DNA from: Luteitalea sp.
Lineage (GTDB): Bacteria; Acidobacteriota; Vicinamibacteria; Vicinamibacterales; Vicinamibacteraceae
Direction: 5' to 3'
Assembly (NCBI GenBank): GCA_009377605.1
Contig: WHTT01000048.1
Coordinates: 1-50,352 of the forward strand
DNA: 50,352 nt
Part shown: piece by piece, positions 1 to 12,134 of the stretch
Layout: each line of letters opens with the position of its first letter
How positions within the stretch are numbered: position 1 is the stretch's first letter
The notes under the pieces: model-generated
The model's input: only the letters and a program-made list of their open reading frames with translations
What the model was told of the DNA's origin: nothing
Database searches by the model: none
Translations under genes and position numbers: made by a program

Positions 1-1359
1 CGCCAAGCGCCGCACATGGCCGACCTGCAGGTAAACCTGAGGCCGAAGTCGGATCGCCGCACGCAAAGTCACGCCATCGCTGGGCGCGTCCGTGAGCGCA
101 TCACGCCGATGGCAAGGCAGCTCGGCGCGCGGATCCAGGTGGCCGAGGTCCCGCCCGGTCCGCCGGTCCTCCAAACGCTGGTGGCCGAGGTCTACGGACC
201 GGATCCCGATCAGCGCGTGGCACTGGCCAATACCGTGCGACAGACCTTCGAGACGACGCCGGGCGTCGTCGATGTCGATTGGTACGTCGAGGAAGAACCA
301 CCGAAGTCGATCTTGCGCGTCGACGAGGAGAAGGCCGCCGCGGCAGGCGTCAGTGCGGGAGCCGTCGCATCCGTCGTCAACATGGCAGCGAGCGGCGAGG
401 TCGCGGGCCTACTGCATGACGAGCGGTCGCGGGAAGACGTTCCGATCGTCCTGCGTCTGCCCCGCGCACTGCGGGACTCGGTCGACACCATTCGCGCGGT
501 TCGGCTGGCCGGCTTAGCGCCCGCTGGCCCAACACTGGCTGGCCCAGAACCAGCTGGCCCAGATCCAGCTGGCACTGGGCAGGTGGCCGTGGGTGAGCTC
601 ACGGCACTCGTCGCAGGCCGTGAGGCGCGCAGCATCTACCACAAGAATCTCCGCCCGGTCACGTATGTCACGGGCGACGTCGCGGGCGGCCACGAGAGCC
701 CCGTATACGCAATTCTGCAAATGAACCGTTCGCTTGCCACGGTAAGCACGCCAGACGGGTCCACCTTCGAGATCTACAACACACGCCAGCCAGAGGACAG
801 CGCCTGCTACGCGATGAAGTGGGACGGCGAATGGCACATCACCTACGAGGTGTTTCGTGATCTCGGCCTCGCATTTGCCGTGGTGCTCATCCTCATCTAC
901 ATCCTCGTGGTGGGCTGGTTCCAGTCCTTCACCACACCGCTCGTTATCATGGCGGCCATCCCGTTCTCGCTCGTGGGGATTCTTCCGGCGCACGCGGCGA
1001 TGGGCGCCTTCTTCACCGCCACGTCGATGATCGGGTTCATCGCGGGCGCAGGCATCGTCGTACGAAACTCGATCATCCTGGTGGACTTCATCGAGCTGCG
1101 CCTGCGCGACGGAATGCCGCTGGCGGACGCCGTTGTCGACGCCGGCGCCGTTCGCTTTCGGCCGATGGCCCTGACCGCCGCCGCCGTCATCGTCGCGGCC
1201 ACGGTCATCCTGTTCGATCCGATCTTTCAGGGCCTCGCCATCTCGCTGATGGCCGGCGAGGTGGCCTCGCTGCTGCTGTCACGGATGACCGTGCCCGTCA
1301 TCTACTACCTGGTGAACCGGCGGCACCTCGTCCAGCAACCAGCCACGACCGCTGCGTAA
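1..1359 (+). CDS. RND-family efflux permease, C-terminal part (5' end outside window)
   Basis: This is the 3' portion of an inner-membrane proton-driven RND pump of the CusA/heavy-metal type, which exports metals or small molecules together with a periplasmic adaptor and an outer-membrane channel. The reading frame is open from base 1 (residues RQAPH precede the first internal ATG at 16), so the gene begins upstream. The visible 450 or so residues hold the second periplasmic porter segment and then hydrophobic helices from about residue 280 onward, including [52 protein letters not shown] (the conserved helix motif of RND pumps) and a final helix ending [11 protein letters not shown]. The porter domain carries an odd Ala-Gly-Pro-rich insertion built from a 15-bp tandem repeat (523-582). 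Family-level assignment is firm; the substrate cannot be read. Confidence 0.9.
523..582 (+). repeat. 15-bp tandem repeat inside the RND permease gene
   Basis: Four head-to-tail 15-bp units start at 523, 538, 553 and 568 with the core GCTGGCCCAGANCCA. The second and third units differ at one base; the first and fourth are more divergent. They encode the pentapeptides [15 protein letters not shown] and AGTGQ. The unit length is a multiple of three, so copy-number changes keep the frame. It sits in a surface region of the porter domain where related pumps normally have a short loop. Confidence 0.75.
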
Positions 1360-1412
1360 GGTCGCGAAATTCTTACCGTGCTGAAACACAGACGGAACCC
1401 AAGGAGGGCGTG

Positions 1413-1610
1413 ATGGAGAATATGAACATCGAACGGATGCTGCGGCTCATTGCGGGCTTCTTCGTCGCGGCCAGCGTGCTCGCCGGTATCTACGTGCACC
1501 CGTACTTTTTCTGGTTCACCCTGTTTGTCGGCTCGAACCTGTTCCAGTCGGCCTTCACCAACTGGTGCCCGATGATGGCCCTGTTGAGGCGGGCTGGCGT
1601 TCGGGGCTAG
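1413..1610 (+). CDS. DUF2892 (YgaP-like) small inner-membrane protein
   Basis: A 65-residue protein with two hydrophobic segments (about residues 11-27 and 30-45, FFVAASVLAGIYVHPYFFW then FTLFVGSNLFQSAF) and the late NWCPMM motif with a conserved Cys, the typical pattern of the DUF2892/YgaP transmembrane family. Such proteins often accompany rhodanese domains or metal-efflux genes. The ATG at 1413 is preferred because AAGGAGG at 1401-1407 lies 5 bases upstream; an in-frame GTG at 1410 is too close. It follows the RND permease by about 50 bases on the same strand and is probably cotranscribed. Its function is unknown; a structural or sulfur/metal-related membrane role is only a family-level guess. 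Confidence 0.8.
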   Translation: MENMNIERMLRLIAGFFVAASVLAGIYVHPYFFWFTLFVGSNLFQSAFTNWCPMMALLRRAGVRG

Positions 1611-1613
1611 TCC

Positions 1614-1737
1614 CAATGCTGTTCACTTAGCGCCCGACCTAAAGGTCGGGCCTACACAAGTCAGCGGCAGATCGGGCAAATGTAGGCCCGACCTTTAGGT
1701 CGGGCGTCTGCGTCAGTACCTAAAATGAACAGCATTG
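1614..1737. mobile_element. MITE-like 124-bp palindromic element
   Basis: The element is bounded by perfect 12-bp terminal inverted repeats, CAATGCTGTTCA at 1614-1625 and its reverse complement at 1726-1737; similarity continues inward into TTAG. Inside are two inverted copies of a 26-bp module (1631-1656 and 1681-1706) that are exact reverse complements of each other, each itself a hairpin with 9-base arms GCCCGACCT/AGGTCGGGC. There is no open reading frame, so any movement would need an enzyme in trans. Histidine-kinase homology begins immediately after its right end. Whether it moves as a MITE or as a REP/BIME-type unit cannot be decided from one copy. Confidence 0.75.
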
Positions 1738-2389
1738 CGGTTAGGGGAGATGGCCGCGGTCGTGGCCCACGAGGTCAAGAACCCGCTCGCGGGTGTTCTG
1801 GGGTCCCTGCAGATTGTGCGGACGCATCTGGTCTCTGAGGGATCGGATGCGCAGGTGGTCGAGCTGATGGCCGCGCGCCTGCGGGCGCTCAACGCGATGG
1901 TGGATGAACGTCCTGAAGTGTGCGCGCCCGAAACCGCCCACGTTCGCGAGCGTCTGCGTGCACAGGCTGCTGCGTGATACCGCGTGGTTGTTGCGAAGCG
2001 AAGAGCGCCTCTCCGGTGTGACCGTCGATATCCAGGGCCACGATGACGTGGTGCTGCCCGCAGATTCAGAGCAGCTCCAGCAAGCGTTTCTCAACCTGTT
2101 CATGAATGCTGCGCAAGCCATGGGCAACAGCGGAGTGATTCGAGTCACGGTTCAGGCAAAGGGCGACCGGTGCGAGGTCGCGATTGCGGACCACGGCCAC
2201 GGTGTGCCCCGCGATCTGCGCGACAGGATCTTCGAGCCGTTCTTCACCACCAAGACCCGCGGCACCGGCCTTGGGCTCGCCATCGTCAAGCGAATCGTGG
2301 AGCGCCACGGCGGCAGCGTCGATCTCGCCTCCTCGTCCGAGCGCGGCACCACGGTCGTCGTGACACTTCCTCTGGCGCCCTCCGTCTGA
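1738..2389 (+). pseudogene. Sensor histidine kinase, 5'-truncated and frameshifted
   Basis: The C-terminal kinase core of a two-component sensor is recognisable in two frames. The dimerisation/phosphoacceptor H-box (RLGEMAAVVAHEVKNPLAG) begins at the very edge of the palindromic element, so the whole sensory N-terminus is missing. Near 1912-1920 one base is gained or lost: the first frame runs into AMVDERPEV and stops at 1975-1977, while homology resumes in the next frame at CARPKPPTF. The ATPase domain then continues with N-box FMNAAQAM, G1 box DHGHGVP, F-box FEPFFTTK and G2 box GTGLGLAIV. Some of these motifs remain intact, so decay is recent or a C-terminal fragment is still read from an internal start. 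No response regulator is adjacent. Confidence 0.85.
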
Positions 2390-2423
2390 GCACCTTGCAC
2401 CGTGCACCGATTCGACAGCACGG

Positions 2424-2479
2424 TCGACCTTCAGGTGGGTGCGACGCCCGCGCGCTCGTTGTTCCGGTGTCAGGGTCAT
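2424..2479 (-). pseudogene. Relic of the 5' end of a TAT-exported oxidoreductase gene
   Basis: On the minus strand, from an ATG at 2479, about 17 codons read MTLTPEQRARGRR then THLK. This nearly copies the start of the intact Gfo/Idh/MocA gene whose ATG is at 5902 (MTLTPEQRARGRRNFLK), including the bases just upstream of the start codon (GCGACCATGAC versus GTGACCATGAC). Homology stops after the twin-arginine region. The relic lies between the truncated histidine kinase and the proposed IclR operators, so it looks like what is left of a second, paralogous IclR-controlled gene. Confidence 0.6.
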
Positions 2480-2624
2480 GGTCGCATGCTTGCGGTGCCC
2501 GGCCGAACAGGACTGCTGATCGAAGGCTGCCTTCCAGGTCCGCGTTACGATCAGCACGTCGGTCGGGTCCAAAACAATATGGATGTCGACGTCCGGAGGG
2601 AGCATCCACCGGCGATGCGATGTG

Positions 2625-2691
2625 TTCTGTATAAGACAAGCAAACAGCGGAAATACGTTCTATTATGTGAGATTAGTACTGTACAACAGAA
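2625..2691. promoter_or_regulatory. Two candidate IclR operator sites upstream of the regulator gene
   Basis: Site 2625-2639 reads TTCTGT-ATA-AGACAA (10 of 12 matches to TTCTGT-N3-ACAGAA) and site 2677-2691 reads TACTGT-ACA-ACAGAA (11 of 12). Perfect copies of the same 6-3-6 palindrome occur at 6278-6292 and 6459-6473. A 15-bp inverted repeat with a short central spacer is usual for IclR-family operators. The sites lie 160-230 bases before the regulator start, between it and the divergent relic at 2479, so they could serve autoregulation, the lost divergent gene, or both. The stretch from 2390 to 2853 otherwise holds only the relic. Confidence 0.6.
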
Positions 2692-2853
2692 CGGCCTCCG
2701 TACCGGCCGAGGTACAGAGCATGAGCGGGCAGGCGGCATCGTCTGCGGTGTAGCGACATCAGTCCCGATGGTCCGGCGTTTCAATATGGGTCGCGGGCAG
2801 GCCGCGCCGCGAGTGCGCACCGGCTCCGACTCCAATGGTATGTTGACCGTCAC

Positions 2854-3684
2854 ATGCGTTCCTCCAGGCAGAATCATCAGCCGCTCGGCTACAACATTGA
2901 AGTCATCGACAAGCTCGTCCGCGTTCTAGAGATCCTTCGCGACGCGCCCGGCGGCCTGACGCTGCAGGACATCACCCTGCAAACGGGCTATGTGAAGAGC
3001 TCGATTCACCGGACGCTCGGCAGTCTCAAGTGGCACGGCTACGTCGAGCAGCCGATCCCTGGCGGGCCGTACCAGCTGGGCATCAAGTGCCTCCTGCTGG
3101 CGCGCGGCTTCACGGCCAACGTGGAGCTGCTGCCGTTTGCGAGGCCGTATCTGCGCGAGATCGTCGATGCATTCGACGAAAGCGCGTACCTCGCGATTCT
3201 GCGGGCTGGTCGCGGCATCTTCGTGGACGTGTGTGAGCCCCGGCGCCGCAATCTCCGGCTCGTGGGCCCGCTGGGCGCCGACGTGCACTTCCACGCGACG
3301 GCCGCCGGGAAAGTGCTCGCCGCCTATCTTCCGGCGTCGGTGCGGGCCCGACTGCTCTCGCAGATTCAGCTCGACCCGCTCACGCCACGGACCCTGACAA
3401 GGCGTGCCGAAGTCGAGAACGAATGGGAGAACGTGGCGCGGCGGGGCGTTGCCTTCAACCAGGAGGAGACGATCATTGGAGCGATCTTCTTAGCCGGCCC
3501 GATCTTCGACGCTGAGCGCGCCGTCTGCGGCTGCATCAGTGTGGGGATTCCGAAAGTCCGCTACTCGCGTGCGCTCGGACAACAGGTCGCAAAGGTGCTC
3601 AAGGACTCCTGCCGGCGTCTGTCCGACATGCTCGGCGCGGCCGCCTACGTCCACGAGGATCGCCAACTCCACGAGTTGCACTGA
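2854..3684 (+). CDS. IclR-family transcriptional regulator
   Basis: A 276-residue DNA-binding regulator. Residues 16-80 form the winged helix-turn-helix (VIDKLVRVLEILRDAPGGL, then LQDITLQTGYVKSSIHRTLGSL as the recognition region); residues 95-265 form the effector-binding domain with the family signatures HATAAGKVLAAYLP and RGVAFNQEETIIGA. Family members bind small carboxylic acids or sugar-derived ligands and control adjacent catabolic genes. The target set here is suggested by the repeated TTCTGT-N3-ACAGAA palindrome upstream of this gene, of the 6247/5902 minus-strand operon and of the decayed TonB receptor at 6.5 kb. The ATG at 2854 is the first start that gives the family's normal N-terminal length. 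The ligand is unknown. Confidence 0.92.
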   Translation: MRSSRQNHQPLGYNIEVIDKLVRVLEILRDAPGGLTLQDITLQTGYVKSSIHRTLGSLKWHGYVEQPIPGGPYQLGIKCLLLARGFTANVELLPFARPYLREIVDAFDESAYLAILRAGRGIFVDVCEPRRRNLRLVGPLGADVHFHATAAGKVLAAYLPASVRARLLSQIQLDPLTPRTLTRRAEVENEWENVARRGVAFNQEETIIGAIFLAGPIFDAERAVCGCISVGIPKVRYSRALGQQVAKVLKDSCRRLSDMLGAAAYVHEDRQLHELH

Positions 3685-3835
3685 CCGGAGCGCAGCCACC
3701 GAAAGGCCTGGCCGCATTTCGGCTTCAGAAGGCAGCTCCAAGGCTGTCTGCGTGAGCCGGTCTGCTGCTGCCTGCAGGCCGCCCGTCGGAACGTGTCTGA
3801 CATCCCCGCGGCGTACACGCACTCCCCGCCCACCG

Positions 3836-4462
3836 TTACCAAGGGACGAGATACCCGTAAATCTCGATCCAGTCGAGTCGCGAGCTCGCCGGTGTGCCGC
3901 CCCCGCGCATCACGTCGGTGAAACCGGTGGCAGCGATACGCTCGAGCGGTGGACGTTTGACTGGCCGTCCTTCGCTGATTGTCGCTGCGTCGAGTGTCCG
4001 CCACGTCAGGTCGGCCACGTCGAGCTCACGCACACGCCAGTCATCCGAGGCGGGCTCTGACTGGTCGCTGACCAGCCACCCGCCATCCGCGAGTTGGACG
4101 ATCAGGTGCAAGTTGCGAAAGCCACTCTGCCGGCTGCGCCACCGGATCGATCCGCCCCGGCTGAGATCGACAAGTCCGGCCCGGTGTCGCAGCCCGACCG
4201 CCCACGTGTCTAAGGCTTCGCCGGACCAGACGTAGTACGGGTCATCGGCTGGCTGGTCGTGATGGCTCTTCTTGATCCTGGCGTTGCCCGGTCCGAACAG
4301 CAGGAGCCTGAGGTCGGGATGCGCGACGTGTGCCTGCGTGACCGGCCGTGCAGCGGGCGTCTCCCGCCAATCTTCGCGCGCGAGTAGCGGCGCCCGCTGG
4401 ATCCCGTCGGTGTGGGCAGGTAGAAACAGGGCTAGTAAAACGCCAATCAGGCGAGGGGACAC
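3836..4462 (-). CDS. Secreted protein of unknown function
   Basis: A 208-residue protein from a GTG at 4462, chosen because GGAGGAGG (complement of 4467-4474) sits just upstream and because it gives a clean signal peptide (SPRLIGVLLALFLPAHTDG). The mature part is rich in Trp, Arg and Asp, with a YYVWSGEALDTWAVGLRH segment, strands such as SGFRNLHLIVQLADGGWLVS, and a C-terminal LDWIEIYG, a pattern resembling beta-sandwich carbohydrate-binding or DUF1080-like domains; I cannot name a family with confidence. It lies downstream of the TAT oxidoreductase on the same strand (147-base gap) and may belong to that transcript. A role in sugar or glycan handling is only suggested by context. Confidence 0.6.
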   Translation of the reverse strand: MSPRLIGVLLALFLPAHTDGIQRAPLLAREDWRETPAARPVTQAHVAHPDLRLLLFGPGNARIKKSHHDQPADDPYYVWSGEALDTWAVGLRHRAGLVDLSRGGSIRWRSRQSGFRNLHLIVQLADGGWLVSDQSEPASDDWRVRELDVADLTWRTLDAATISEGRPVKRPPLERIAATGFTDVMRGGGTPASSRLDWIEIYGYLVPW

Positions 4463-6492: not shown

Positions 6493-6549
6493 TTGTGCTT
6501 GACGCGGCGCCGGGCCGGTGCGACATGGGGCCTATTGAGACATCGGTCT

Positions 6550-7215
6550 GGGGTGAACCGCAGTGCACGGGTCGATCCGGCGCTCGCCGTCGGCACGGCG
6601 GTCGAGAGCGTCGAGGTCGTCGGCGATGCGCCGCTGGTCGACACGCGCCACGTGGCGCTTGGACGCACGGTGACGCAGACGGAGATCCTGAATCTTCCAC
6701 TCGTCGACCGTGACGTGTATGCGCTGCTCGATCTCACCGCCGGTGTCGACGATTCGACCTCGAATAACCTGTTCGGGATTCCCGGTCAGGAGACGCTCGT
6801 CAACGGATCCGCCAACGCGGGGACGGGTGCGGTGAACTACAACCTGGACGGCGGCGCGAACACGAGTGGCCTGCGCCAGACCGGCAACATCGCGCCGAAC
6901 CCGGACGCGGTGCGCGAGTTCCGCGTGCAGACCAACAACTATTCGGCCGAACACGGCCGGTCGGAACAACTTCGGGGGAAGCCTCGGCGGGCCCGTCGTT
7001 CGGAATCGCACGTTCTTCTTTGCCAGCTACAACGGCATTCGACAGACCACCGGTGAGTTCGAGAACGGCGCGCGCGTTCCCACCGCGCTGGAACGGCAAG
7101 GGGATTTCTCCCAGAGCCTCGACGACGGTGCGCTCGTGGTGATCCGGGATCCGCTGACGGCTCAACCTCGGGTTGCGCTACGACCTGCAGCTCGCGCTCA
7201 CAGACCCGCAGAACC
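6550..7215 (+). pseudogene. TonB-dependent receptor (Oar type), multiply deleted remnant
   Basis: Pieces of a large outer-membrane receptor remain in order. The first piece runs from AVESVEVVGDAPLVDTRHV through the plug (LPLVDRDVYALLDLTAGV, NYNLDGGANTSGL) to NNYSAEHGR. At about 6960 an internal deletion joins this, in a new frame, to NNFGGSLGGPVVRNRTFFF and on to VVIRDPLTAQ. Near 7165 another deletion leads to LNLGLRYDLQ. Signal peptide, regulatory-like domain and nearly all of the barrel are missing. At about 7215-7220 it abuts an opposite-strand nitric oxide reductase fragment. It clearly cannot make a functional receptor. Intact relatives occur at 12.6, 18.2, 27.7 and 47.6 kb. Confidence 0.85.
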
Positions 7216-7219
7216 GCAA

Positions 7220-7658
7220 GTTGACCTTCGTACCCGGCCGGATCGATGACGAGCGTCCGCGTCGCCGGGTCGTACGTGTTTGCTCGCATCATCTGCGTCA
7301 GCCGCTCGCGCAGTGGTGCCTGCGCTTCAGGCACGAGCTGCGCATAGCCCCGCCCGTGCGCTGTCTGTGCCCACCGATCGAGCGCGAATGTCACCTCACG
7401 ATGGAGCCAGTCGGCGGTCCAGTCGGGCGCGACATAGCTCCCGTGTCCCCACACAGAGCCGAGCTCCATCCCGCCCAACGACTGCCAGACGTTCTGACCC
7501 TCGTGAATCTCTCCCGGGCCTAGGACGATTCGACCGTCGCTTGTGACAACGCGCTCGGGCACCGGCGGGGCCTGCTGGTAGATGCGGACGCCGACGGCGC
7601 CCAGCACCGTGAACGACACGACAATCACAGCGGTGAACGCGAACCATAACTTGCGCAT
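7220..7658 (-). pseudogene. Quinol-dependent nitric oxide reductase (qNOR), N-terminal fragment
   Basis: From ATG 7658 on the minus strand the first 145 or so residues match the N-terminal extension of single-subunit quinol-oxidising NO reductases: the first transmembrane helix (LWFAFTAVIVVSFTVLGAVG), then GPGEIHEGQNVWQSLGGMELGSVWGHGSYVAPDWTADWLHRE split over residues 45-90, and YDPATRTLVIDPAG. The intact enzyme is about 750 residues; the remaining helices and all haem/iron ligands are absent. Homology stops about 7220, where the fragment meets a TonB-receptor remnant read from the other strand. The 5' end and start codon look unharmed, so a short aberrant protein may still be made. Confidence 0.85.
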
Positions 7659-8547: not shown

Positions 8548-8606
8548 TTGACCGACCAAACCGGTCGCATATAGAGTTCTGGAGGTGGAATTGAGACTCA
8601 GTTTCA
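8548..8606 (+). promoter_or_regulatory. Promoter of the porin/flavinylation operon with a Fur-box-like palindrome
   Basis: TTGACC (8548-8553), a 16-base spacer and TATAGA (8570-8575) form a plausible promoter about 50 bases before the porin start. Immediately downstream, at 8592-8606, lies TGAGACTCAGTTTCA, an imperfect palindrome close to the TGAGAAT-N-ATTCTCA form of Fur-type boxes (about 3 mismatches). If genuine, binding there would block the early transcribed region, making the operon iron-responsive. Confidence 0.45.
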
Positions 8607-8628
8607 TTTTGTCGTTATCCCGTCGCGG

Positions 8629-10002
8629 ATGAAGAGCCCGCTCATGACGAATGCCTCACACCTTCGGGCTGGTTCCGTGGCACCCTCTGGCGTCTGCCAT
8701 CTGTGCCTTGCTGCGGCCATTGCCTGTGTCCTCACTTGGCCTGGTAGCGTACCGTGCGTGTACGCCGCCGCCTCTGACCAGTCCGCGGATGCACCATCGA
8801 ATACCAACTCGCAGTCAGCCGACCAGCGCACCGAAGACATCGAGGAGCTGAAACGGCGGCTCGAGGTGTTGGCGCAAGAGGTGGAGAGGTTCCGCAGTGG
8901 CGAAGAGGAGCGCGAGCTGACCGCCGAGGAAACGCGCGCGCTGGGGTTGGCGCCCTCCGCGGCTTCGGCGTACACCAAGCGGCAAGGCATCTCCGTCGCC
9001 GGCTATGGCGAGGCGCTGTACGAGAACTTCGAGGGCGATCGCACCTCTCAATTCGACTTCGTGCGCGCCGTGATCTACACGGGCTACCGCTTCAGCGATC
9101 GGTTCGTGTTCAACTCCGAGATCGAATTCGAGCATGGTGGTGATGAACTGGGCGTCGAGTTCGCGTACGTCGACTACATCGTCAACCCCAGGGTGACCGT
9201 GCGCGGCGGGCTGCTCCTCATGCCGTTGGGGCTTGTCAACGAGTTTCACGAGCCCAACGTGTTTCTCGGCGCACGGCGTCCTGCCACGGAGTCGCAGATC
9301 ATTCCCTCGACATGGCGCGAGAACGGCGTGGGTGTGCTCGGCACCGTTGGTCGGTTCAGCTATCGTGGCTACCTCGTGAACGGATTCGATGGCTCTGGCT
9401 TCACGGCGGACGGGCTGCGCGGTGGCCGCCAGAACGGCGGCGAGGCGAAAGCGGATGATTTGGGTGTGGTTGGTCGTCTCGATTACGCACCGGGCCCTGG
9501 AGTGTTCGTGGGCGTTGGCGCGTACAGAGGCGGCGCGGACCAATCGGCACCCACGACCGGCGGCGGCGAGCTTCATGTGACGACGACGATCGTGGAGCTG
9601 CATGGGCAGGCACAGTTGCGCGGCTTCGATGTGCGTGGCCTGTTCGCACACGCGGAGGTAGATGGCGCGGAGGCCCTCAGCGTGGCCAACGATCTGCCGA
9701 GAGACGAGGCGGTGGCCAGCACGATGCGCGGCGTCTATCTGCAGCTTGGCTACAACGTGCTTGCCACCGTCACGGAGCGCCTCCGTCTCACGCCGTACTA
9801 CCGCTTCGAGGTCGTGGATACGCAGCGGGACGTGCCAGCAGGCTTCATTCGCGACCCGGCTCGCGACGTGACGGGTCACGTGATCGGTGCCGAGCTCCGT
9901 CCCATCTACAACATCGTCGTGAAGGCCGACTACCAAGTGACGGACAACGATGCCGGCACGGGACGCGACCAGTTCAACATCGCCCTCGGCTATGCGTTTT
10001 AA
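8629..10002 (+). CDS. Outer-membrane porin-like beta-barrel protein with N-terminal coiled coil
   Basis: A 457-residue exported protein. The signal peptide covers roughly residues 20-46 (CHLCLAAAIACVLTWPGSV, cleavage near VYAAA; an alternative start is ATG 8644). Residues 60-95 are a charged coiled-coil helix (TEDIEELKRRLEVLAQEVER) typical of trimeric OprO/P-like porins, followed by amphipathic strands (DFVRAVIYTGYRFSDRFVFN, EFAYVDYIVNPRVTVRGG) and a C-terminal Phe (FNIALGYAF), the signal for outer-membrane assembly. The next gene's ATG at 9992 overlaps its end, so the two are translationally coupled. In this operon the barrel could host or feed an electron-transfer partner, or import a substrate; the ligand is not readable. 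Confidence 0.8.
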   Translation: MKSPLMTNASHLRAGSVAPSGVCHLCLAAAIACVLTWPGSVPCVYAAASDQSADAPSNTNSQSADQRTEDIEELKRRLEVLAQEVERFRSGEEERELTAEETRALGLAPSAASAYTKRQGISVAGYGEALYENFEGDRTSQFDFVRAVIYTGYRFSDRFVFNSEIEFEHGGDELGVEFAYVDYIVNPRVTVRGGLLLMPLGLVNEFHEPNVFLGARRPATESQIIPSTWRENGVGVLGTVGRFSYRGYLVNGFDGSGFTADGLRGGRQNGGEAKADDLGVVGRLDYAPGPGVFVGVGAYRGGADQSAPTTGGGELHVTTTIVELHGQAQLRGFDVRGLFAHAEVDGAEALSVANDLPRDEAVASTMRGVYLQLGYNVLATVTERLRLTPYYRFEVVDTQRDVPAGFIRDPARDVTGHVIGAELRPIYNIVVKADYQVTDNDAGTGRDQFNIALGYAF

Positions 10003-10549
10003 CGTGGGAAAGCTGGTTGCGATTGTCGGCCTGCTCGCGATGGTTGGAGCGATCGCACGGGTCACGGCGCAGCGCATGATCAGCCGAGATGAAGCGCTGC
10101 AGCTCACCTTTCCCGGCGCCGCGATTACCTCGTCGACCGTGTTTCTGACGGAGGCGCAGCAGGCGCGCGCCGCGAAGCTCGCCGGCGAGGCGCTACCCAG
10201 CCCCCTCATCGCGCGCTATGTTGCGCGCGTTGATGGTCGTATCATTGGCCGCGCCTACGTGGACACACACGTGGTTCGCAGGAAGCGCGAGAGCTTGTTG
10301 ATCTCGCTCGACAGCCGTGGTCGCGTGAAGCGCATCGACGCGACCGCGTTTCTCGAGCCGCCGGAGTACCAAGCACCTGATCGCTGGCTGGAGCAATACG
10401 ACAACCGCGCGCTTGGCCCTGAGCTGAGCCTGCAACGGAGCATTCGCGGCATCACCGGTGCGACACTGACAGCCATGGCGACCAATGCCGCCGTGCGCCG
10501 AGTCCTTGCGCTCGACCAGGTGCTCGAAGCCGCGGCAGACCAGCGCTAG
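9992..10549 (+). CDS. Exported FMN-binding domain protein (covalent flavin carrier)
   Basis: A 185-residue protein starting inside the porin's last codons. An N-terminal hydrophobic segment (LVAIVGLLAMVGAIARVTAQ) exports or anchors it. The C-terminal half is an FMN_bind domain with the flavinylation motif ITGATLT; by analogy to NqrC/RnfG the acceptor is the Thr of GAT, about residue 158. The domain includes RIIGRAYVDTHVVRRK and a polar strand before the motif. The modifying enzyme ApbE is encoded two genes downstream. The likely role is a one- or two-electron relay outside the cytoplasmic membrane, taking electrons from the neighbouring b-type cytochrome. The terminal acceptor is unknown. Confidence 0.85.
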   Translation: MRFNVGKLVAIVGLLAMVGAIARVTAQRMISRDEALQLTFPGAAITSSTVFLTEAQQARAAKLAGEALPSPLIARYVARVDGRIIGRAYVDTHVVRRKRESLLISLDSRGRVKRIDATAFLEPPEYQAPDRWLEQYDNRALGPELSLQRSIRGITGATLTAMATNAAVRRVLALDQVLEAAADQR

Positions 10550-10570
10550 GACGACAGGACGACGGCCCTC

Positions 10571-11080
10571 ATGGAGGGTCGCCAACGAGTCACCATGCCA
10601 GCTTGGGAACGACGGTCACTCCACGTGCTGACGGTCTTGGTCACGCTCACCGGCGTCGTCTATCTTTGGATGAAGTACGCCATGGCGACCGACGACCCCT
10701 TCGCCGTCGTCAACCATCCACTCCAACCGCTCGTCCTTGCTGCACACATTCTGGCATCCCCTGCATTACTCTTGGTCTTTGGCCTGGTGTTGCAATCCCA
10801 CGTGCTTTGGCAGATTCGCACCGGTGGAACGCCGAACCGGAAGAGCGGCTACGTGATGCTGAGCAGCTTCGGTGCCATGGCGCTCTCTGGTTACCTGCTG
10901 CAGGTCGTCACGGCTCCGGCGATTCTCGAGACGATGATCGCGGTTCACGTCATCGCGGGCGTGCTGTTTGCCGTGGCGTACCTGGTCCACCTGATCATCA
11001 GTGCTCGTCTCACACGAGAGCGGCGCACAGCGGTGCCGCGGCGCTCACGCGACGCAACGGCGGTTGTGGCGGGGAAATAG
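10571..11080 (+). CDS. Cytochrome b-like integral membrane protein (four helices)
   Basis: A 169-residue protein with four hydrophobic helices: HVLTVLVTLTGVVYLWMKYA, LVLAAHILASPALLLVFGLV, GYVMLSSFGAMALSGYLLQV and IAVHVIAGVLFAVAYLVHLI. Histidines within helices 1, 2 and 4 are placed like bis-His haem ligands in DUF4405/cytochrome b561-type quinol oxidoreductases. It begins 21 bases after the FMN-binding gene (ATG 10571; a second ATG at 10595 would drop 8 residues) and precedes apbE by one base. The inferred task is moving electrons from the quinone pool or NADH-derived carriers across the membrane to the flavinylated protein. Haem content is not proven by sequence alone. Confidence 0.75.
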   Translation: MEGRQRVTMPAWERRSLHVLTVLVTLTGVVYLWMKYAMATDDPFAVVNHPLQPLVLAAHILASPALLLVFGLVLQSHVLWQIRTGGTPNRKSGYVMLSSFGAMALSGYLLQVVTAPAILETMIAVHVIAGVLFAVAYLVHLIISARLTRERRTAVPRRSRDATAVVAGK

Positions 11081-11081
11081 C

Positions 11082-12134
11082 ATGGGCCCGTGGCGCCGAA
11101 CGATCATCGCGACACTCCTCGTAGTGGTCTCGCCTCCCGCACTCAGCAGCTCCACGAAGGTCAGCCACGTACTGGTGCAACGCCACGCGTATCTGATGGG
11201 CACGTCCTGTCGTCTTGTGACCTACGCACCCAACCGAAGCGTGGGGCTCGCGCGGCTCGAAGGCATGCTTCGCGCGCTGGAGACGAGCGAAGAGCAGCTC
11301 AGCACATGGCGTAACGACACAACGCTCGCGCGATTGAATCGCCAACCGGTGGGACACCCTGTCCAGATCGGCCCTGACGCCTGCGGTCTCTTGCGGACGC
11401 TGAGACGTTGGTGGGACCAGACAGGCGGCGCGTTCGATCCAGCGATTGGGAGTCTCATCGATGCATGGGGCCTTCGCGCCGGCGGCCGCACGCCCCGGGC
11501 CGCCACACTCACACAGGCGCGTGCGCGTGCGGGGTTCAAGCACATCGCCGTCGACGCAGGCTGCCGTCTCACACGCAGGCGACCGGTCACGCTGGAGGAG
11601 GGGGCATTCGGCAAAGGCGTTGGGCTGGACCGCGCAGCGGCCGTAGCGACAGGTGCGTCTTGGCTCATTGATCTCGGCGGGCAGGTCATGGTGGGAAGCT
11701 CGCCGCCAGACGCGGCGGGCTGGGATGTTGCGCTGGCGCACCCGCTGGCACGCGAACGCCCGGCCCTCGTCGTCTCGCTCGCGTCTGGCTCACTTTCGAC
11801 CAGCGGTGGTTCGGAACGTGACGTAAGCGGGGATGGCCGGCGCATCGGCCATATATTGGATCCACGCACAGGGCGACCTGCCACGTTCACAGGATCGGTC
11901 ACGGTGTGGCATTCACAGGCGCTGGCCGCCGACATCCTGTCCACCGCGCTTTACGTGATGGGAACGGAGGCCGGCCTCAGGTGGGCCGAGGCGCACGATG
12001 TTGCCGCGTGCTTTCTTGTCCCGCGGCGCGGGGGCTCGGTGCAGGTTGTGAAGAGCGCAGCATTCAAGGGGCGCTTCGATCGAGGTTCGGTCGGAACAGC
12101 CGGGCTGGTCACCCAAGGTGAGGTCTGTCACTGA
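11082..12134 (+). CDS. apbE: FAD:protein FMN transferase (ApbE family)
   Basis: A 350-residue exported enzyme that uses FAD to attach FMN to a Thr of partner proteins. The ATG at 11082 follows the previous stop by one base, with GGCGGGG as ribosome-binding site. A signal peptide occupies residues 1-24. Family motifs occur in order: LMGTSCRLVTY near residue 40, GAFDPAIGSLIDAWGL, GAFGKGVGLDRA, WLIDLGGQVMVGS, GHILDPRTGRPA, and the metal-site ADILSTALYVMG. All key segments are intact. Its presence in the same operon as an FMN-binding protein with a TGAT motif makes that protein the obvious substrate. Confidence 0.93.
   Translation: MGPWRRTIIATLLVVVSPPALSSSTKVSHVLVQRHAYLMGTSCRLVTYAPNRSVGLARLEGMLRALETSEEQLSTWRNDTTLARLNRQPVGHPVQIGPDACGLLRTLRRWWDQTGGAFDPAIGSLIDAWGLRAGGRTPRAATLTQARARAGFKHIAVDAGCRLTRRRPVTLEEGAFGKGVGLDRAAAVATGASWLIDLGGQVMVGSSPPDAAGWDVALAHPLARERPALVVSLASGSLSTSGGSERDVSGDGRRIGHILDPRTGRPATFTGSVTVWHSQALAADILSTALYVMGTEAGLRWAEAHDVAACFLVPRRGGSVQVVKSAAFKGRFDRGSVGTAGLVTQGEVCH

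Follow-up and report, generated by a model that had tools for sequence, protein, structure and literature searches.

A 50,352-nucleotide (nt) stretch of DNA from Luteitalea sp. (GCA_009377605.1, contig WHTT01000048.1; hereafter the window) carries on its + strand an operon of four genes, A to D (8629-12134). They encode a porin-like outer-membrane barrel, a flavin mononucleotide (FMN)-binding carrier, a four-helix membrane protein and ApbE, a flavin adenine dinucleotide (FAD):protein FMN transferase, and are preceded by a palindromic operator of the Fur type (Table 1). The first-pass annotation had described four tightly spaced genes here, and this description was borne out: they are present at the position and spacing it gave, and the ApbE, its likely target, the b-type cytochrome-like four-helix protein and the barrel make up one conserved unit. 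Comparisons were made in 396 Acidobacteriota genomes (phylum sample) and 149 genomes (class sample), with the view beyond Acidobacteriota based on plasmid records only; comparison genomes and loci carry G and L numbers.

Table 1. Coordinates of the operon and its control region in the window (aa, amino acids)
Feature	Position	Strand	Remarks
Promoter-like site, TTGACC-18-TAGAGT	8548-8577	+	consensus scan, 1 found against 0.8 expected from shuffles; weak alone, just before the operator
Fur-type operator palindrome, ATTGAGACTCAGTTTCATT	8590-8608	.	26.1 bits by the palindromic motif found de novo
Gene A, porin-like outer-membrane barrel with N-terminal coiled coil	8629-10002	+	457 aa; precedes B in 100 of 112 genomes with B
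Stretch of A resembling a coiled coil, roughly residues 66-92	8824-8904	+	conserved heptad-like sequence; several coiled-coil families match relatives weakly
Gene B, FMN_bind carrier with signal-type N-terminus	9992-10549	+	start ATG 9992 (185 aa) or GTG 10004 (181 aa, as in L006)
Codon for the Thr predicted to be flavinylated (residue 158 in ATG numbering, TGAT motif)	10463-10465	+	
Gene C, membrane protein of four helices, probably a di-haem b-type cytochrome	10571-11080	+	169 aa; start 10571 (10595 if as in relatives)
Gene D, ApbE FAD:protein FMN transferase	11082-12134	+	350 aa; PF02424

Gene D matched PF02424 over profile positions 1-266 of 266 with 204 bits (cut-off 25.6), and an alignment of 21 D sequences contained 53 invariant positions, including His257, Asp284 and Thr288. 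For B, the match to FMN_bind (PF04205) was borderline, with 21.7 bits at a cut-off of 22 and 22.9 bits, just over it, in a six-frame search; a Bradyrhizobium homologue reached 36.2 bits, and the B profile matched RnfG of the solved Rnf complex 9eri (E 4.9e-7). The TGAT threonine that the first-pass annotation had placed near residue 158 was confirmed in ATG numbering. Among 90 unique near-full B sequences the acceptor site was always kept (Thr in 78, Ser in 12), the Gly at -2 was invariant and the Ala of G-A-[ST] was present in 81. Position -6 from the acceptor held Arg in 72 of these relatives, His in nine, Val in four, Pro and Ala in two each, Lys in one and Asp in none, whereas the published ApbE motif, D-x-x-[ST]-G-A-[ST], opens with a conserved Asp (PMC12052999). 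Because changing this Asp to Ala reportedly had minor effects only (PMC12052999), its absence makes B less sure as an ApbE target, yet still a possible one. The own genome contained a single FMN_bind match and four ApbE matches, leaving B as the only FMN_bind candidate for D.

The translational overlap of the porin gene with B, part of the first-pass description, did not hold up as a conserved trait. The sister locus L006 has ACG where the window has ATG, the GTG one base past the A stop codon is kept in both, and A and B are usually separated by tens of bases in other loci; whether they overlap in the window is uncertain from the sequence. A second B-like FMN protein, 43-51% identical to B and with a GASFT or GSSFT site, was seen in L054, L055, L057, L060, L064 and L066, lying 6-7 kb from the module in four genomes and having neither A nor C alongside in the loci seen.

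Gene C resembled cytochrome b561 weakly (PF01292; 22.7 bits, under the cut-off of 30.1) and did not qualify as DUF4405 (PF14358; 14.2 bits at a cut-off of 26.7), with four long helices modelled and not six. His 59, 77, 126 and 140 were invariant in 75 of 75 unique relatives, and a fifth histidine, His 49 in the loop preceding helix 2, was found in 70 of the 75. An AlphaFold2 model built on a three-row alignment showed four helices with a mean predicted local distance difference test (pLDDT) score of 78, placing His 59/77 in helix 2 and His 126/140 in helix 4. Two histidine pairs on two membrane helices are the arrangement of a di-haem b-type cytochrome, which C probably is, judging from conservation and the model; its loop charges suggest that both termini are cytoplasmic. 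Searches with the structure were less telling: Foldseek returned nothing at E 0.001 or better for the C model, VIA-align ranked designed four-helix proteins highest (Z up to 13.0), and its matches to cytochrome b6f chains (Z 9.8-10.8, root-mean-square deviation 3.8-4.2, 134-139 residues) fall in a range that the tool calls common for helical bundles and were not taken as evidence. The C profile found no relevant match among solved structures. A single open reading frame (ORF) covers both C and D in L007/L038 and L144, and the L007 sequence has an extra hydrophobic stretch ahead of its ApbE part, which would place ApbE outside.

Protein A has a signal-like N-terminus, followed by the coiled-coil-like stretch and a barrel ending in the C-terminal Phe typical of outer-membrane proteins; this Phe was aligned in 73 of 75 unique relatives, the other two being gapped. 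No Pfam or NCBIfam family reached its cut-off in A. Porin_O_P (PF07396) did not match the window protein and gave one match at E 0.045 among 23 close relatives, and it exceeded its cut-off in the distant relatives L068, L076, L182 and L195. A search of solved structures with the A profile gave no relevant match, and a phage collection yielded one unannotated match at 25% identity. Two other assignments were dropped: A as a flavinylated protein, as the motif is missing, and A as a TonB-type protein, as neither a plug nor a TonB family was matched. Elsewhere, a barrel unlike the porin replaces it upstream of B-like genes in L193 (DUF6662 by Pfam), L198 (DUF6662 by annotation) and L073. On plasmids of Ca. 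Manganitrophus (L068 6658-8047 and L069 6658-8047), a porin 37% identical to A has a Fur-like box upstream. In ten Acidobacteriota loci (L178-L186, L191), a porin paralogue adjoins a di-haem oxidoreductase-type gene, and six of these add a small cupredoxin-like gene; Pfam was run on cluster representatives here, and the cupredoxin match was below cut-off. The A family thus accompanies periplasmic redox proteins, several of them connected to iron in the literature (PMC3143127).

Conservation of the unit was assessed at several levels. B was present in at least 112 and the porin in at least 127 of the 396 phylum genomes, presence counts being lower bounds since scoring was limited to the best candidates in each genome (eight for B, four for A). 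Where B had the porin upstream, the two were on the same strand, within 230 nt in 93 genomes and at 0.6-1.9 kb in seven, with a median gap of 51 nt; the 12 B genomes with no linked porin comprised three with the porin on another contig, three in which B sits at the edge of its contig, and a remainder with no nearby porin match. At class level (B threshold E 1e-5), 28 of 149 genomes had a B match and 21 of the 28 the order A-B-C-D, with the other seven showing A-B-C (two), B-C-D at a contig edge (two), a lone B paralogue (one) or divergent arrangements (two). Forty further loci across families had the orders DABC (20), ABCD (8), ABC, with no D in the sequence retrieved (8), or another (4), including two loci with the ApbE match in two pieces, and C followed B in 37 of them. 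Of 72 loci (the window, L006, 24 from the class, another 42 from the phylum and four plasmid records), 52 had all four genes on one strand inside a span of 4.5 kb. Apart from some exceptions, loci of ABCD and DABC order fell in different regions of the B tree; flanking genes recurred within subgroups only. Chance synteny of A to D is rejected by these linkage counts.

Related clusters were also found on plasmids of Pseudomonadota. Ideonella, Bradyrhizobium and Methylocystis carry the order A-B-D-C (porin, FMN-binding protein, ApbE and small protein), and Novosphingobium and Sphingomonas have the same set with another barrel in place of A (DUF6662 by annotation in Sphingomonas, a similar ORF in Novosphingobium). 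Profile comparison confirmed homology between the clusters for A (E 6.4e-69) and B (E 2e-18), and C is homologous to their small protein (hhalign E 1e-15), with the four membrane histidines aligned. A-B-C-D is a conserved module of Acidobacteriota; the first-pass annotation had made its reading depend on the porin keeping company with the other three genes, and a search for the gene order across the phylum found that it does.

The operator connects this module to iron. The window box lies 13 bases past the -10-like hexamer and 20 bases ahead of the A start codon, and agrees with the Xanthomonas Fur box AATGAgAATcATTctCATT at 15 of 19 positions (PMC1790865). De novo motif search in 54 upstream stretches yielded ATTGAGACTCAGTCTCAAT / ATTGAGAATGATTCTCAAT with a log-likelihood of 291, against 31-48 in eight shuffled sets (the shuffled sets were given 15 seeds and 15 iterations, the real set 27 and 25). 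Complementarily, the E. coli Fur consensus, scored upstream of the modules, beat 1,996 of 2,000 permuted palindromes, the permutations that reached it including TGAG..CTCA words of like kind. Box matches at 17 bits, no more than 700 nt ahead of the domain start in the first gene, were present in 41 of 58 module loci; the remaining 659,628 bases of these loci held three, and reversed sequence held none. Of 68 Acidobacteriota loci, 10 had too little upstream sequence and were left out. The count of 41 is partly in-sample, as the motif was trained on the boxes of 54 loci, and freer tests are provided by loci outside the training set and by whole-genome pattern searches. Outside the training set, boxes stood upstream of module, porin or replacement-barrel genes in L068, L069, L070, L073, L188, L189, L192, L193, L196, L197 and L198.

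In the own genome, the pattern ATTGAGANTNANTCTCAAT, allowing up to two mismatches, occurred at four places and a backward control pattern at none. One place was this operon and the other three were directly upstream of TonB-dependent receptor ORFs (L203, L204, L205). The L204 receptor is a siderophore receptor by TIGR01783 (329.6 bits against an NCBIfam cut-off of 223.5), and the L205 receptor (1210-3987, - strand), which has the box at its start, carries an N-terminal CbiX chelatase-type domain. A weaker site (22.4 bits) lies 26 nt before a feoA ORF that is followed by feoB (TIGR00437, 449 bits against 316), and one FUR-family match was found in this genome. In the sister genome G116, the orthologues of all three receptors likewise have the box in front of them. 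Every site with at most one mismatch falls at the module in G107, G015, G156 and G078, the last having two, 0.2 and 0.9 kb upstream, and G291 has no site by pattern and a 24.8-bit motif site at its module. By the criterion of a Fur-type box at the promoter that is common to iron genes of the own genome, the operon is predicted to be Fur-regulated. At genome level, FeoB (E 1e-20 or better) was found in 24 of 28 module genomes and in 72 of 121 others (P 0.006, counted by hand and uncorrected for kinship); the cut was set by hand, as FeoB_N at its default threshold matched 149 of 149 genomes and was uninformative.

Regulator genes themselves occur beside the module. A FUR-family gene was found near it in eight of 103 sequences searched, as the immediate co-directional upstream neighbour in L153, L156, L161, L164, L167 and L173 and nearby in L144, where Pfam confirmed it, and L193. 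In L156 and L173, where the FUR-family gene heads the operon, the palindrome takes the variant form TTGCGAAT-TTCGCAA, which would suit a joint change of regulator and operator. A ZIP-family gene (PF02535, 44.3 bits against 35.1; L138 6533-7288, L207 1608-2363) is divergent from the G156 module and shares its box.

We consider it probable, from sequence, that the operon encodes an iron-repressed periplasmic ferric reductase with a dedicated porin, in which electrons would run from quinol through two b haems and a covalent FMN to Fe(III). Judging from the operator and the other genes that carry it, a Fur-family repressor would leave 8590-8608 under iron scarcity, allowing expression of the four genes. 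D would attach FMN to Thr158 of B in the periplasm, as the motif, the partner gene and the signal-type N-termini suggest, and the conserved histidines and helix layout of C point to an inner-membrane protein whose two bis-histidine b haems would carry quinone-pool electrons outward to the FMN of B. B would then reduce Fe(III) species in the periplasm, Fe(II) would enter the cell via FeoB, whose genes here carry the same box, and porin A may admit iron species through the outer membrane. Of the earlier suggestion that a metal or ligand is passed, the metal part fits the Fur-type box common to iron genes. Far more tentative is a reductive iron trap working without TonB at the outer membrane, with A as a dedicated ferric-species pore, B at its periplasmic mouth, perhaps held on the A coiled coil, reducing the iron on arrival, and quinone-pool electrons driving net uptake.

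Several observations weigh against the ferric reductase with its porin. The box is absent at 17 bits from 17 of the 58 module loci, among them the G116 module (L006), where the best site has four mismatches, and outside the training set L071, L072, L190 and L195 have the module without a box. Within the predicted regulon, the L203 receptor ORF breaks off after its plug domain, and a fourth G116 site (L215 1501) adjoins no recognised iron gene, with a ribosomal-protein S4-like ORF on one side. Fur regulons also contain other genes, so that a box speaks for iron control and not for the substrate. The operon contains no iron transporter, and the ZIP gene stands beside the module in G156 only among the 103 sequences searched. 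An AlphaFold2 model of A from a three-row alignment reached a pLDDT of 34, from which the size and selectivity of the pore are not derivable. Finally, no Fur-like box reaches 17 bits beside the porin paralogues that adjoin a di-haem oxidoreductase gene (L178-L186, L191); iron repression is therefore not a property of the porin family in general.

An unlikely alternative, which survives best among the rivals, is iron-regulated electron supply to another periplasmic enzyme, such as a peroxidase, a multicopper oxidase or a stress-repair enzyme, whose substrate the porin would admit. In Ideonella, a gene for cytochrome c peroxidase lies ahead of the porin, a multicopper oxidase gene is inserted between A and B in L158 and another lies beside the Methylocystis cluster, and in L195 and L196 a di-haem oxidoreductase shares one cluster with the flavin genes. 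These partners, however, vary by genome, and only the four genes recur throughout the compared neighbourhoods.

Electron passage at or across the outer membrane, as the first-pass annotation had proposed, with B alone or on A delivering to acceptors at or beyond that membrane, appears improbable. The tight A-B linkage favors it, the coiled coil of A could hold a partner, and DUF3570 proteins, about 420 residues long, are also among the targets of ApbE (PMC8238504). Against it, B is a single small FMN domain with a signal-type N-terminus, and A contains neither CxxCH nor [ST]GA[ST]. MtrAB/PioAB-type outer-membrane cytochrome conduits encode c-type haem motifs with their barrel; since CxxCH was found in none of the A, B, C and D proteins, the operon does not qualify as such a conduit. 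Nor did the neighbours scanned include a multihaem outer-membrane cytochrome, for which no systematic search was made. Relatives of A also occur with no annotated flavin module: on plasmid records of Pseudoalteromonas and Parabacteroides the A relative is the first gene of porin-imelysin-di-haem oxidoreductase loci, and in Hymenobacter it sits after di-haem oxidoreductase and Rieske genes. Porins beside imelysin and di-haem oxidoreductase genes with no flavin module annotated fit a substrate pore better than electron passage.

We assign an equally low probability to the same device serving another metal, such as copper or manganese, and controlled by a member of the FUR family that is not Fur itself. 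The FUR family includes Zur, Mur and PerR, copper-related genes flank the Methylocystis cluster, and the variant palindromes of L156 and L173 both come with a local FUR-family gene; on the other side, boxes in the own genome precede TonB receptors, one a siderophore receptor at cut-off, and feoAB, with one FUR-family protein found. Least credible of all is a module running in reverse, with electrons from an oxidized metal or organic donor entering the quinone pool: the boxed porin relative of Ca. Manganitrophus, described as a manganese oxidizer, lends it some support, but no flavin or FMN gene is annotated near that porin, FMN potentials are low for Mn(II) oxidation, and iron-repressed expression suggests acquisition.

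Other features of the window lie outside this operon. The 239-aa ORF at 6939-7658 (- strand) looks like a decayed nitric oxide reductase fragment by its sequence, its first part matching the NorB cytochrome c-like domain PF22085 (136.9 bits, positions 1-112 of 181). At 6493-7249 (+ strand), two overlapping ORFs in different frames resemble pieces of one carboxypeptidase-type TonB receptor, a type common in the window; the first piece had no Pfam match. Rfam gave nothing at gathering score in the window, L006 or L007.

The iron-repressed reductase proposed above belongs to a known kind, that of flavinylated carriers with haem-type membrane partners, some of them Fur-controlled and tied to iron (PMC8238504, PMC11334425). 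Flavinylation clusters of PepSY-like, DUF2271 and ApbE proteins have been implicated in iron assimilation, with iron reduction proposed, Fur repression cited for two species and a TonB receptor in some clusters (PMC8238504). Like these, the module combines an extracytosolic carrier, here predicted to be flavinylated by ApbE, with a haem-type membrane protein; unlike them, it has an FMN_bind carrier, a four-helix membrane protein with no Pfam family at cut-off, a porin partner and a motif without Asp. DUF4405 proteins, which are often encoded beside apbE, and the ferrosome protein FezC (PMC11334425) are matched by C in its small size, b-type-like character and four conserved histidines, whereas C has four helices and DUF4405 six. 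B shares the FMN_bind domain with the RnfG/NqrC subunits, but its motif is Asp-less and no Rnf or Nqr genes were recognised in the operon. The Pseudoalteromonas and Parabacteroides loci resemble imelysin/EfeB-like iron-uptake loci (PMC3143127); unlike the module, they have no annotated flavin genes and no box was found there. The words 'Porin' and 'Acidobacteri' are absent from the main texts of PMC8238504 and PMC11334425, and the literature searched, mostly judged without full text and with subscription papers and preprints outside its scope, contained no description of such a module. A variant with a dedicated porin, a four-helix cytochrome outside DUF4405 and an Asp-less flavinylation site is not described in the literature examined.

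Acidobacteriota are abundant soil bacteria, and to our knowledge little is known of how they acquire iron. The module suggests a concrete route for iron, open to testing, along which a chain of flavin and haem carriers would work with its own pore. It adds the porin as a fourth protein type to flavinylation systems, and its predicted natural family of ApbE targets with the motif Asp replaced bears on how ApbE recognizes its targets. C suggests a further class of four-helix cytochromes beside those of PMC8238504 and PMC11334425. Were the tentative iron trap true, it would constitute a distinct flavinylation class, recognisable by its dedicated porin, its four-helix cytochrome with two haems and its ApbE site lacking Asp, and might serve many Acidobacteriota as a main iron route.

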